Below, in pieces: positions 4,480-31,902 of a DNA stretch of 37,144 nucleotides. Numbering within the stretch: the stretch's first letter is position 1; the number at the start of each line of letters is the position of its first letter. The stretch is from Deltaproteobacteria bacterium (GTDB taxonomy: Bacteria > Desulfobacterota > GWC2-55-46 > DRQE01). The notes below the pieces were generated by a model. The model saw only the letters and a list, made by a program, of their open reading frames with translations. It was not told where the DNA came from and did no database searches. Position numbers and translations under genes: made by a program. Location of the stretch: NCBI GenBank assembly GCA_015492495.1, contig WGEY01000039.1:1-37144 (forward strand), in the 5' to 3' direction.

Positions 4480-4539
4480 ATGCCCAGAAGGTTTATCGTA
4501 CCCAGGGTCGCCCATTGCAGCGAGGGGTGCCGATGCTAG
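4480..4539 (+). CDS. Candidate Cys-rich leader peptide, 19 aa
   Basis: ATG 4480 follows an unusually strong ribosome site (AAAGGAGGGG, about 5 nt spacing) and the frame closes at TAG after 19 codons. The peptide has three Cys in its last seven residues (CSEGCRC). A TATAAA that could be a -10 box lies at 4452-4457. The stop is 27 nt before a strong intrinsic terminator, and the seleno-rhodanese gene begins just after that. The arrangement resembles amino-acid attenuation leaders such as trpL. Expression and function are inferred only; it could also be a spurious small ORF. Confidence 0.4.
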   Translation: MPRRFIVPRVAHCSEGCRC

Positions 4540-4566
4540 TCCCGGGCATGACGTTAAACTGCCCAG

Positions 4567-4597
4567 GGCGGTCTTCGGGCCGCTGTCTTTTTTTTTT
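4567..4597 (+). terminator. Strong intrinsic terminator upstream of the seleno-rhodanese
   Basis: GGCGGTC and GGCCGCT pair over 7 bp (two G-U) around a TTCG tetraloop closed by C-G, and about ten T residues follow directly. It is the best-formed rho-independent terminator in the window. Only about 10 nt separate the T-tract from the AGGAGG of the next gene, so no ordinary promoter fits between them. It therefore either attenuates the rhodanese gene or is read through. Confidence 0.85.
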
Positions 4598-4621: not shown

Positions 4622-5053
4622 ATGATGTTCAGGGTAAAGTTCATATGTGCCGTGATTTCTTTCTTCCTCGTAGCGGCATGTGCACTCGCCGACGCCGAGG
4701 AGGGTGATCACGATCACCATGTCCCCGTACCACGCATCACTGTGGAGGAACTCAAGTCAAAGCTCGAAAGGGGTGAGGAGGTTTATATCCTGGACCTGAG
4801 GTCGCAGCACTCATACACAACGAGCCGGTACAGGATAAGCGGCGATATACGCATACCCCCGCGTGAGTTGAGACTAAAGGCCGCGGCCCTTCCCAGGGAC
4901 GCCGAGATAGTAACGTACTGCACGTGACCAAACGAGGCTCTCAGCGCCCGTGGGGTGCTGATCTTAAGGCAGATGGGCTTCAAGCGCGTAAGGGCGTTGA
5001 AGGGCGGGTTTGATGCATGGCTTGGAGGCGGCGGTGACGTAGAGCCGAAGTAG
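4622..5053 (+). CDS. Periplasmic rhodanese-domain selenoprotein (TGA = Sec)
   Basis: The track stops this gene at TGA 4925-4927, but the frame continues for 41 codons to TAG 5051-5053 with obvious rhodanese sequence. Before the TGA it reads EIVTYCT; after it, PNEALSARGVLILRQMGF and then LKGGFDAWL. In relatives the TGA position is the catalytic persulfide-forming Cys of the YCxCPNE loop, so Sec replaces the active-site Cys. The 143-aa product starts with a signal peptide (FICAVISFFLVAACALA), then a His-rich linker (DHDHHVP), then the single rhodanese domain from about residue 38. A SECIS-like hairpin follows the TGA at a suitable distance, and SelB and SelD are encoded 3-6 kb away. AGGAGG at 4607-4612 serves ATG 4622. 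Sulfur or selenium transfer in the periplasm is the likely role. Confidence 0.85.
4942..4960 (+). promoter_or_regulatory. Bacterial SECIS-like hairpin in the rhodanese gene
   Basis: CAGCGCCC and GGGTGCTG form a perfect 8-bp stem (one G-U) with a GTG apical loop. The loop begins 22 nt after the in-frame TGA, inside the spacing window known for bacterial SECIS elements, and its first base is G followed by U. The hairpin lies within the coding sequence, as is usual for bacterial selenoprotein mRNAs. Confidence 0.75.
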
Positions 5054-7794: not shown

Positions 7795-8847
7795 CTACGC
7801 ACCCTCGACTACGATCGTCCTTGGCATCTTCCGCGTGACCTCCCCTATTACAAATGCATCGCCCCCTCTTTCCTCCAAGCCATTCCGCAGATCACCGGCC
7901 CTTTCCCGTGGTACCGAAATCAAAAGCCCCCCGGATGTCTGGGGATCATGGAGGAGGAGTTCAACGGCCTCCGTAACATCCGGCGAGACCTCAACCCGGT
8001 CTTTGAGGAAGTCCATGTTCGATGCTATTGCGCGGGGCCTGTTCTTTCTGGACAGTACCAACTCCGTAGCGCCTCGAAAGAAAGGCACATCCCCGGAGCG
8101 TATGACCATGCTGACCCCGGAGGCGTCCGCCATCTCGAACGCATGTCCCAGCAGCCCGAAGCCCGTGATGTCCGTGCAGGCGTTTACACCTACCTCGATC
8201 ATGGCCTCTGAGGCACCCCTGTTCAGCGCCAGCATGGAAGAGACGGCCTCCGAAGCCCCGGCCTCCGAGAGCCTGCCGGCCTTTACGGCGCTCGTAATCA
8301 CACCGGTACCTATGGGCTTTGTGAGTAGCAGAAGATCACCCTCCTTCGCACCGCTGTTGGTCACCATACGGGCCGGATCAACGAAGCCTGTGACCGAAAG
8401 ACCGTACTTTATCTCCCTGTCCTCGATGGAATGGCCGCCCACGAGGAGCGCGCCTGCCTCCCTGAGCTTGTCCGTGCTCCCCCTGAGTATCTCAAGCAGT
8501 ACCGAGGTGTCGAGCTTGCGCGGGAAACAGACCATGTTCGTCGCGAAACGAGGGGTTGCGCCCATGGCGTAGATGTCGCTCAGGGCGTTGGCTGCGGCGA
8601 TACCACCGAAGGTGTATGGATCATCGACGATCGGCGGGAAAAAATCCAGGCTCGTCACAACCGCAAGGTCGTCCGAAATGCGGTATACCGCGGCGTCGTC
8701 GGATGTCTCGGTTCCGACAAGGAGCGCGGGATCGTCTGTCTTCGGCAGCTGATGCAGGACCTGCATCAGGGCGCTGGCCTCCATCTTGGCCGCTCACCCG
8801 GCACAGCTCGCCCAACTCGTAAGCTTTATCTTTTTACCCCTGTTCAC
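7795..8847 (-). CDS. selD: Selenophosphate synthetase SelD, selenocysteine-containing
   Basis: SelD makes selenophosphate from selenide and ATP, the selenium donor for tRNA-Sec. The track starts at Met 8784, but the frame continues upstream through one TGA (8794-8796) into KIKLTSWASCAG-U-AAK. This is the N-terminal catalytic loop of SelD, where the TGA occupies the position of the catalytic Cys/Sec. The start is probably GTG 8847 (MNRGKKIK...), with GAGGTGA 5 nt upstream, giving 350 residues including Sec18. Later motifs include TSLDFFPPIVDDPYTFG, GGHSIED and the final DPQTSGGLLISV, all typical of SelD. A SECIS hairpin follows the TGA. It is the last gene of selB-ydcF-selD, 22 nt after ydcF. 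Confidence 0.93.
8749..8769 (-). promoter_or_regulatory. Bacterial SECIS hairpin in selD
   Basis: On the minus strand CTGATGCAG and CTGCATCAG form a perfect 9-bp stem with a GTC loop. The apex GCAGGTCCTGC is close to the known E. coli fdhF SECIS apex (GCAGGUCUGC), which SelB recognises. The loop begins 33 nt after the TGA, within the accepted range. The hairpin is inside the coding frame. Confidence 0.85.
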
Positions 8848-9586: not shown

Positions 9587-11518
9587 TCACCTGAGGATCC
9601 TCACATCGCCCTTTCTTATCGTTACCCTCTCTTTGTCGAAGTACTCGAGTATATCTATCGCAAGCCTCCTTCCGCATCCGAGTATATCCCTGAACTCCGC
9701 GGCCCTTATGGGGCCCTTCTCGCTTATGCGCCTTTCAAGCCTCTCCCTTGCCGTACGAAGCGCTGCAGCCGAGATGAATACATCCTGCCTGAGCCTTACC
9801 ACGAGTCCGCGCCGAAGGAGGTTTTGAAGGACCCTCTTGGCATCGGCGCCCCCCTTGCAAAGCCTTTCTATATCTTCGGACCTTGTAGCCGTAAAACCCT
9901 CTCCCACGGCCCTCAGTATGGCGTCCTCGATCTCTTTTTCGGCGCCGGCCGCTTCCGGCCTGTGCCCGGCAAGGGCCACGAAGGCGCCTTCCCTACGCAA
10001 ACGCCCCTCTCTTATGAGCTCATCCAGCACCCCGTCCCTAAAAAGCCCCGACGCAGCCGCCCTCCCCACCCTGCCCTTTACCACACCAAGGACACGGTCC
10101 AGCAACTCGTCGACCTTCATCCCGACCTCCCCGGGATGCTCCCGATGATGGACAGAGAGCGTACTCAGCACCGCATCCCTGACGGCACGGACGGAAGAGG
10201 CCTTGACAACCCTGCCCCCCACAAGGGTGAACCTCCCTTCCTCCGCAAGAAAATCATCGAGCTCGGCACAGTCCATGTTCAGCATGATGCAAAGCGTGTC
10301 CCTCTCCACACCGTAGCCACCCCTTGAAAGGAGCGTGGATATGACCTCCCCGGCTCCGCCGCCCTCAAGGCACTCGAAGTCAGTATCCCTCACGGCGGGC
10401 GCAAGCCCCCTCGAATAATAGGGAAGGAGCACCTCGCCTCCGGCTATCGTCCTGTTGACGGACGGATCCCTGAGTATGAACCTGTCGCCCCTGAACATCA
10501 TGAGCGGTTCATTGAGCCTGATCCTCGCGTAGACCCTCGAGCCGGGGGCTGCCTCGCGGAGATCCCTCAGAAGGACCGTTGCAAGGACCTCGCTTGTGAG
10601 GTAATGGAGCTTGAGGAGCCTGCGGTTCTTAAGGGGCCTCGGCATGGAGCTAAGGAGGTCGAGCACGCAGTCGAGCCTCCCTGCACCCTCCTTCAAGGCG
10701 GCGACTTCGCCCGAAACGAGCATGTCTCCCCTTTTAACCTCGGTGCACGAGATGCCGGCAAGGTTCACGGCGGCCCTCTGTCCCCTTGAAACACTCTCGA
10801 CACTCAAGTGGTGGCTCTCTATGCCCCTGACCCTTAGCCTTCTGCGGTGCGGATACAGAAGGACCGTGTCCGAACGCCTGAGGGCGCCGGATGCCACCGT
10901 GCCGGTCACCACCGTGCCGAAGCCCCTCATCGTAAAGGAGCGGTCCACGGGCAGGCGCATGAGCCCGCTCGTACCCCTCTGCGGTGCCTTGCGGCACAAC
11001 CCGGCAAGGAGCTCCCTCACCTCCTCCATGCCGCTCCCGGTAGTTGCGGAGGCCTCTACGATACAGGAGCCCTCGAGGCCTGTACCCTTTAAGAGGGCCG
11101 TCACCTCCCGCCTTACCTCGCCGAGCCTCCTGGCATCCACAAGGTCGGCCTTCGTTATGACGAAGAGCCCGTTACGTATCCCCAAAAGATTGACTATCTC
11201 TAGGTGTTCGCGTGTCTGGGGCATAACACCGTCATCCGCTGCCACGCAGAAAAGGACCATGTCAATGCCGGTGACACCGGCAAGCATGTTCTTTATGAAC
11301 CTCTCGTGTCCAGGCACATCTATGACGGCGGCGCGCACGCCTCCGGGAAGGTCTACGTAGGCAAACCCCAGGTCTATGGTCAACCCCCTCTTCTTCTCCT
11401 CGGCGAGCCTGTCGGTGTCCATGCCGGTGAGCGACTTGACCAGCGTGGTCTTGCCGTGGTCCACGTGTCCTGCGGTGCCTATTATAACCTTTGCGGGTGA
11501 ATGTGTCTTCGACGGCAT
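9587..11518 (-). CDS. selB: Selenocysteine-specific elongation factor SelB
   Basis: The 643-aa GTPase begins [19 protein letters not shown] (G1, about 12-30). [14 protein letters not shown] is the switch region (G2), [15 protein letters not shown] is G3 and ITKADLVD is G4. After the EF-Tu-like domains 2-3 it has a C-terminal block of winged-helix repeats (from about 390; ending with [23 protein letters not shown]) that binds SECIS RNA. SelB carries Sec-tRNA to UGA codons on the ribosome. It is first in a minus-strand operon with ydcF and selD and is transcribed away from the hydrogenase genes. Its presence makes the two in-frame TGA codons credible as Sec. Confidence 0.96.
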
Positions 11519-30570: not shown

Positions 30571-31569
30571 CTACGCCACCTCTCCGCCGCAGCTCGAACC
30601 GGCGCCCGCCGTGCACCCGTAACAGTGCATCCCTGTCACGATGGTCCTGCAATCTAACGTCTCACGGTCAAGATCGTCTATATGGGACGGCGCACCGTGC
30701 GCACATACGAGGCCCAGCATCTGATTGAAGTCACAGTCAAAGAGCGTGCCGTCCCAGCCTACCGAGAGTGTTTCCCTGCACATGACATTGGCCGCAGCGG
30801 CCGGGTTGAACAAACCGACCAGGCGTTCCATGTAAGAGCGCATATTTCCGGAACCTTCGAGGAAGTCACGGAACCTCCCGAGCGGCATGTTGGTTATTGT
30901 AAAGAGGTTTGTAAACCGTATCCCGAAACGGCCTTCGAGCTCCCTTCTGAAGTCACGTTCAATGGAAGCCTGAGAGGGCGGCAGGTAGGCCCCGCAGGGG
31001 TTGTAGGCCAGGTTCAAGACAAGACCGTTACCACCTGAGCCGTAGCCGGCGCGGTTCAGCCTCTTCAATGCATCCAGCGACGCCCTGAAAGTCCCCGGGC
31101 CCCGCATCCTGTCCGTGGTACGCTCGGTATAATACGGCAAAGAGGCTATGACCTCGACCCTGTTGCGGGCGAAGAACTCGGGCATATCCTCGAACCCGTC
31201 CTCCACAAGGACCGTCAAGTTGGTGCGCGTCTTTACCCGGCTTCCAAGCCGCACACACTCTTCTATAAACCACCTGTAGTCAGGGTTCATCTCCGGGGCG
31301 CCACCGGTTATATCCACAACGGGTATATCGCATTCGTCAACGACCCTGAGGCACGACTCCATGACCCTCTTAGGCATGACTTCCCCGCGCCGTGGCCCTG
31401 CGTCCACATGGCAGTGGAGACATGACTGATTGCAGAGGGCCCCTACATTCACCTGCAGGGTGGTCACCCCGCGGGACGTCAGAGGATAAAGGCCGGACTC
31501 TTTCAGTGATTGGCTGAAGCTCTTGAGCCCGTGGTCATCCATGCCGTGGCCCCGGTGTCGCACCGCCAT
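30571..31569 (-). CDS. arsS: ArsS-type radical SAM protein (arsenosugar biosynthesis family)
   Basis: The 332-aa enzyme has LCNQSCLHCHVDAGP with the radical SAM CxxxCxxC (about 46-53). ITGGAPEMNPDYRWFIEE and LNLAYNPCGAYLPPSQ follow, and a Cys-rich C-terminus, MHCYGCTAGAGSSCGG. This matches the family called ArsS, some members of which are selenoproteins; this copy ends at TAG with no in-frame TGA. ArsS makes a dideoxyadenosyl-arsinic intermediate of arsenosugars. The upstream gene is the family's usual CMD partner. ATG 31569 directly follows that gene's stop; ATG 31542 is an alternative. No arsM is in view. Confidence 0.85.
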   Translation of the reverse strand: MAVRHRGHGMDDHGLKSFSQSLKESGLYPLTSRGVTTLQVNVGALCNQSCLHCHVDAGPRRGEVMPKRVMESCLRVVDECDIPVVDITGGAPEMNPDYRWFIEECVRLGSRVKTRTNLTVLVEDGFEDMPEFFARNRVEVIASLPYYTERTTDRMRGPGTFRASLDALKRLNRAGYGSGGNGLVLNLAYNPCGAYLPPSQASIERDFRRELEGRFGIRFTNLFTITNMPLGRFRDFLEGSGNMRSYMERLVGLFNPAAAANVMCRETLSVGWDGTLFDCDFNQMLGLVCAHGAPSHIDDLDRETLDCRTIVTGMHCYGCTAGAGSSCGGEVA

Positions 31570-31902
31570 CTACAGCCCTATCTTTTCGGCGATCTTCTTC
31601 ATCTGCACCCCGTGGACCAGCGAGGCACCTCCCCGGATGGCCGAGGCCACATGAACCGCCTCGGTCATCTGCTCCATGTCAGCTCCCTTCTCAAGCGAGC
31701 TCTTCGTAAAGGCGTCGATACAGTACGGACACTGCACCGCATGGGCTACCGCAAGCGCTATCAGGGCCTTTTCCCTCTCGCTGAGTGCACCCTCCTTGAA
31801 CACGCTGGAGTACCATTCACTGAACTTCTTCCACAACTCCGGCGCACATTCACCTACAGAGGCGAAATCTGAAAGATCGTGCGGGTCATAGTATGTCTCC
31901 AT
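31570..31902 (-). CDS. Carboxymuconolactone decarboxylase-like, ArsS-associated peroxidase-like protein
   Basis: The 110-aa CMD-family protein has the AhpD-type redox motif AVQCPYCID (Cys58, Cys61) and EAVHVASAIRGGASLVHG, a full-length single domain. Small CMD proteins of this type accompany ArsS, and some relatives carry Sec in the CxxC; here both are Cys codons. GGAGGAG lies before ATG 31902, so it is the probable first gene of the seven-gene run ending in gpmI. I found no clear promoter in the 230 nt upstream. Confidence 0.85.
   Translation of the reverse strand: METYYDPHDLSDFASVGECAPELWKKFSEWYSSVFKEGALSEREKALIALAVAHAVQCPYCIDAFTKSSLEKGADMEQMTEAVHVASAIRGGASLVHGVQMKKIAEKIGL

Follow-up and report, generated by a model that had tools for sequence, protein, structure and literature searches.

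A rhodanese-like gene at positions 4622–5053 (+) of a 37,144-nucleotide stretch of DNA from a Deltaproteobacteria bacterium (contig WGEY01000039.1; the whole stretch is hereafter called the window) raises the question of whether an in-frame TGA ends the gene or is decoded as selenocysteine (Sec) and, in the latter case, at which position of the active-site loop the selenium resides and what chemistry it might serve. Standard ORF calling yields a frame of 101 codons followed by TGA 4925–4927 (ORF 4622–4927). A preliminary description had instead proposed a secreted rhodanese selenoprotein carrying Sec at the catalytic cysteine.

Results

The rhodanese frame continues past TGA 4925–4927

The gene starts at ATG 4622 behind an AGGAGG Shine-Dalgarno sequence and, as the preliminary description had noted, the frame that the called ORF leaves at the TGA runs on unbroken, encoding PNEALSARG...GGFDAWL up to TAG 5051–5053. 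With the TGA translated as Sec (U102), the product comprises 143 amino acids. The read-through product passes the gathering cut-off of the rhodanese domain PF00581 (51.5 bits versus a cut-off of 22.2; residues 40–134), and its predicted fold matches solved rhodaneses. The protein has one rhodanese domain only, located C-terminal of a hydrophobic N-terminus. Hydropathy and sequence inspection are compatible with the earlier proposal of a signal peptide: the segment encoded at 4622–4696 (+) is a likely export signal, with a basic n-region, hydrophobic residues at about positions 7–22 (hydropathy 2.8) and an AxA site near ALADA, and the N-termini of most close relatives look alike. The segment also contains a possible lipobox, VAAC, with C20 as its last residue.

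To find homologues, 59 related genomes were searched with stops read through. Approximately 45 homologues, from 35 of the 59 genomes, carry an in-frame TGA at the same site with rhodanese sequence on both sides; most of them contain exactly one in-frame TGA, and the sequence behind it is conserved. In most pairs for which the rates were computable, dN was well below dS both before and after the TGA. In addition, a Cys-pattern scan of GTDB genomes identified 64 loci with Cys at the TGA position, mostly in Acidobacteriota, and the 57 distinct Cys homologues (Acidobacteriota, Chloroflexota, Bacteroidota and others) have a C-x-C-P-x-E loop in common. Aligned with these, the motif reads Y-C-x-C-P-x-E-[AH]-[ST]-S with both Cys invariant; because the scan pattern demanded both Cys, their invariance follows from the search, and the independent result is the match across the rest of the domain. 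The preliminary description had expected conserved sequence past the TGA and Cys in relatives that lack it, and both expectations were borne out.

A covarying hairpin follows the TGA

The TGA is followed by a bacterial SECIS-like hairpin at 4941–4961 (+), UCAGCGCCC-GUG-GGGUGCUGA, whose GUG loop (4950–4952) begins 22 nt after the UGA. This is the hairpin of the preliminary description, except that its stem has nine base pairs when the outer U-A pair is counted, rather than eight. With 9 bp, a GUG loop, a 22-nt distance and −14.6 kcal/mol, it conforms to the published rule for bacterial SECIS elements (PMC13188914). The single-strand folding energy is unexceptional (z = −1.2), and synonymous recoding and covariation were used in place of this uninformative score. 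An equally stable SECIS-like hairpin arose in 0.6% of 5000 synonymous recodings of the post-TGA codons and was present at 0.26% of the 1173 TGA trinucleotides in the window. Across 29 TGA genes, covariation of the helix was 0.253, compared with 0.103 in shuffled alignments and at most 0.07 in slid registers, and 19 double-compensated cells were counted versus 6.8 in shuffles. The strongest control is the comparison of genes with Sec (CxU) and Cys (CxC) at the second loop position, because the protein constrains third codon positions little: the three helix positions at which two third codon positions face each other pair in 78, 96 and 96% of the CxU genes versus 55, 60 and 41% of the CxC genes. 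Judged by these alignments, the hairpin is maintained by third-position covariation in TGA genes and not in Cys genes. When a strictly contiguous stem is required, the proportion of CxU genes that attain −7.5 kcal/mol is only about 56%.

These results bear on the alternative that the TGA is a true stop, a sequencing error or the mark of a pseudogene, with the downstream sequence as a decaying remnant. Standard ORF calling terminates at this TGA and other genes in the window use TGA as a true stop, as this alternative would have it, but the recurrence of the TGA at this site in some 45 genes from 35 genomes, the purifying selection beyond it, the Cys found there in homologues and the covarying downstream hairpin all speak against it, leaving it barely credible and already refuted in practice. 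An alternative genetic code is likewise rejected: TGA serves as a genuine stop for most genes in the window.

The genome encodes the machinery for Sec insertion

The genome contains selA (572.9 bits), selB, selC (tRNA-Sec, anticodon UCA) and selD, so that the complete gene set of bacterial Sec decoding accompanies an in-frame UGA with conserved coding sequence behind it and Cys homologues. The proximity of selB and selD to the rhodanese gene, pointed out before, was confirmed for selB at 9587–11518 (−; Sec-specific elongation factor, TIGR00475, 353 bits, 349.6 in a second search) and for selD at 7795 to about 8853 (−; TIGR00476), with one correction: selD itself contains an in-frame TGA (8794–8796, in SCAGUAAK), and the called selD ORF therefore starts too late. 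A hairpin of −12.0 kcal/mol lies downstream of the selD TGA. selB tracks the TGA form among the 59 relatives: of the 35 genomes that have this form, 30 also have selB, compared with 8 of the 24 that lack it (Fisher p = 6.5e-5, with relatedness ignored). The five TGA-bearing genomes with no selB hit above the cut-off are all draft assemblies.

The conserved TGA, the Cys homologues, the covarying hairpin and the sel genes together indicate that a selenoprotein gene was missed by standard calling, in line with the preliminary description, and from sequence evidence we consider it very probable that the gene reads its TGA as Sec and encodes a rhodanese-like selenoprotein. As the hairpin is conserved and the Sec machinery complete, SelB with Sec-tRNA would read UGA 4925–4927 as Sec, aided by the downstream hairpin.

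The predicted selenium site lies two residues after the canonical cysteine

The best sequence and fold matches of the protein are solved rhodaneses (PDB), and their active-site Cys aligns on C100, encoded by TGC 4919–4921 (+). In an AlphaFold model (pLDDT 92.9, pTM 0.87), computed from the window protein and relatives from genome contigs only, a strand at 64–68 (EIVTY) is followed by C69, corresponding to C100 of the full protein, by the six-residue loop C-T-U-P-N-E and by a helix from residue 75; the retained Cys thus occupies the end of the strand and the start of the loop, where the catalytic Cys of rhodaneses is located. Alignment and model together place Sec102, the residue encoded by TGA 4925–4927 (+), at +2 from the canonical Cys, where it replaces the second Cys of C-x-C-P-x-E to give C-x-U. 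The earlier proposal that Sec replaces the catalytic cysteine is accordingly rejected by the rhodanese alignments and the model: the canonical Cys is C100 and is retained.

Both loop positions vary among homologues. The 119 distinct sequences comprise 57 CxC, 54 CxU (the count after one spurious row was dropped) and 7 UxU forms; the disregarded row is L078_CxU of the tree, with a branch of 5.4. No UxC form occurs among the 119, a combination that the CxC pattern search is unable to detect, whereas the phylum and relatives searches, with stops read through, could have detected it. The UxU rhodaneses, in which TGA codons occupy the canonical Cys site as well as +2, come from seven genomes (L007, L120, L128, L131, L154, L155 and L156). 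About five changes to UxU are needed within CxU groups, on a tree with few columns and many open forks. Base-call errors in draft genomes are disfavoured as the source of UxU because the form recurs. The motifs given in a 2026 review do not include UxU. A second paralogue of CxU type (L024, L027–L030, L158) seems to lack an export signal; in some relatives it occurs beside an exported one, as for L007 and L158 in genome G012.

Genomic context links relatives to multiheme cytochromes

In four relatives (L140, L143, L150 and L152), a multiheme cytochrome c gene lies directly upstream of the rhodanese gene, and three such adjacent cytochromes have ExtKL as their best NCBIfam match, below the cut-off. 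In a further three from elsewhere in the phylum (L155–L157), a CxU or UxU rhodanese domain is located N-terminal of a multiheme cytochrome c (PF13447) in one fused protein; the two fusions tested pass the NF041203 cut-off (155.3 and 154.3 bits). Sec rhodaneses also form the C-terminus of DedA/VTT-type membrane proteins in L113, L115 and L127 (VTT confirmed for L113 and L127), and Cys versions of this fusion exist in Acidobacteriota. No cytochrome adjoins the rhodanese gene in the window, and the cytochrome link of the window gene is therefore one by analogy.

The neighbours in the window are Spy/LTXXQ-like, rubrerythrin-like and FAD genes, and in the window's own family the rhodanese gene comes after Spy/LTXXQ-type, rubrerythrin-type and methyltransferase genes. 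This setting bears on a reading in which Sec102, C100 and a His-rich N-terminal linker (DHDHH) would act as a periplasmic trap for soft metal or Se/As species. It could draw on the HDHH stretch of the protein, on the upstream Spy/LTXXQ gene, which is of metal-resistance type and kept in the same family, and on an ArsS gene of arsenosugar type that the window also carries; the His stretch, however, is conserved in the nearest relatives only, and a terminator-like hairpin with a trailing T run (4567–4584, +) separates the upstream gene from the rhodanese gene. We consider such a trap improbable. The arsS-type radical SAM gene (30571–31902, −; TIGR04167, 421.6 bits) adjoins an AhpD-like partner (TIGR04169), and its called ORF contains no in-frame TGA.

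Upstream of the terminator-like hairpin, at 4480–4565 (+), the window contains a tiny gene, MPRRFIVPRVAHCSEGCRC, which ends at a stop codon, has a strong Shine-Dalgarno sequence and is trailed by a conserved hairpin, GGGCATGACGTTAAACTGCCC; the gene and hairpin have no Rfam match. Of the 59 relatives, 35 conserve this DNA, not beside the rhodanese but at other loci; there it encodes a peptide of roughly 18–25 amino acids, PR[VI]AHC[SD][ED]G[CH]..SRA, and Spy/LTXXQ-type genes immediately precede at least 11 of the 20 copies retrieved. Two further clear copies occur in the genome; in the window copy a TAG comes earlier. A role of the ORF (4480–4539) as Cys-rich leader for the rhodanese gene was examined and rejected, because its relatives do not adjoin rhodaneses and often stand behind Spy/LTXXQ-type genes.

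Discussion

The gene product would be a predicted-exported, single-domain rhodanese-fold selenoprotein, whose active-site loop C100-T-U102-P-N-E would combine the rhodanese Cys with a Sec two residues on. We infer Sec insertion, a Cys-Sec bond, a substrate and an electron donor as follows. C100 and Sec102 would form a Cys-Sec selenenylsulfide/Sec-persulfide pair, which would take sulfane sulfur, a selenium or sulfur oxyanion, or a peroxide-type oxidant. A periplasmic electron donor, perhaps the adjacent or fused multiheme cytochrome c in relatives, would then return the pair to its reduced state. Redox-active handling of sulfur in the periplasm appears to be the most likely chemistry, with an even chance of being correct; the role of sulfur/selenium transferase or reductase offered by the preliminary description is plausible.

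Sec in selenoproteins usually replaces the attacking Cys and here occupies the +2 position first, and we therefore favour Sec102 as the nucleophile and C100 as the resolving residue, a choice that may prove right about as easily as wrong; a classical sulfurtransferase comes next. In the latter case, plain thiosulfate/polysulfide sulfurtransferase activity would depend on C100 as the persulfide-carrying nucleophile, as in GlpE/PspE, with Sec102 only tuning or protecting it. The rhodanese fold and the position of C100, which is canonical and invariant as Cys or Sec, fit this reading. GlpE-type loops usually have Arg or Ser at the position of the CxUPxE Glu, however, and the invariance of this Glu in CxUPxE loops argues against it, as do the entry of Sec at +2 first (CxU and UxU exist, but no UxC among the 119 distinct sequences) and the cytochrome fusions, which point to redox chemistry. 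A plain sulfurtransferase thus seems possible but rather unlikely.

If Sec102 attacks and C100 resolves, the protein would reduce selenite, polysulfide, peroxide or disulfides in the periplasm with electrons from cytochromes or from a thioredoxin-like donor, and we give this redox enzyme a chance of one in two. The preference of Sec for +2 and the rise of UxU about five times within CxU groups favour it, together with the multiheme cytochrome fusions and gene pairs of relatives and the similarity of the tested neighbour cytochromes to ExtKL, from a Geobacter cluster that also has a rhodanese lipoprotein; the cytochrome link is absent at the window locus itself, which weighs against it. The UxU relatives and the cytochrome and DedA fusions suggest a redox role. 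In the Geobacter ext cluster, a rhodanese lipoprotein is encoded with ExtKL, and loss of extI impairs reduction of selenite and tellurite (PMC5877670, PMC6148476). By analogy with this cluster and with the cytochrome adjacencies and fusions of relatives, a periplasmic redox role is likely. More broadly, and more tentatively, the CxC/CxU/UxU group might represent a redox branch of the rhodanese superfamily, in which the reactive residue has moved to +2 (Sec102), the former catalytic Cys acts as resolving residue and is in turn replaceable by Sec (UxU), and electrons arrive from periplasmic multiheme cytochromes; its members would then be Sec-dependent reductases of sulfur or selenium species and not sulfurtransferases, a generalization that we consider less likely than not.

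These results amend the annotation of an entire group of genes cut at TGA. They also place the expected selenium two residues further along the loop and thereby alter what a mutant or an assay ought to probe, and the CxC/CxU/UxU pattern together with the multiheme cytochrome and DedA fusions provides a testable idea of what rhodanese selenoproteins may do.

The CxU rhodanese selenoprotein is an already catalogued type, to which the window gene adds a member: reviews list it as rhodanese-like form 3, CxU, NF041203 (PMC13188914, PMC9312934). The window protein has the CxU motif of this family (YCTU) and shares the CxU loop and rhodanese domain with NF041203 rhodanese_LYCAU (e.g. TKB26178.1), which is also the top-scoring NCBIfam model for it and for each of the 13 homologues scanned. 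The window protein, at 91.7 bits (84.5 in a six-frame search), falls below the curated cut-off of 115, which relatives from its own order exceed (L005, 122.1; L007, 123.1; G029, 116.8), and by these scores it is a divergent NF041203 homologue, a CxU rhodanese selenoprotein without formal equivalog membership. Other rhodanese-domain selenoproteins of the same catalogue, TsoB (rhodanese/DsbD-like, NF045694) and the UxxS/UxxG forms, differ from the window protein in Sec position and architecture, and its match to TsoB is not significant. The DedA (VTT)-rhodanese fusions share the C-x-C-P-x-E loop motif and the domain, with Cys and Sec homologues L057, L118, L113 and L127, but are membrane fusions, whereas the window gene encodes a stand-alone predicted-exported domain. 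The canonical single-domain rhodaneses GlpE and PspE have the fold and the position of C100 in common with the window protein, which differs from them by the second Cys/Sec at +2 and the Glu at the end of the loop and scores few bits against GlpE. Finally, the Geobacter ExtH/ExtKL cluster pairs a rhodanese with multiheme cytochromes as relatives of the window gene do, and ExtKL is nearest to the cytochromes adjoining those relatives, which score below the ExtKL cut-off; ExtH is larger (49 kDa) and is likened to the window protein by description rather than by sequence, and the cluster differs from the window gene in that the latter stands without an adjacent cytochrome.
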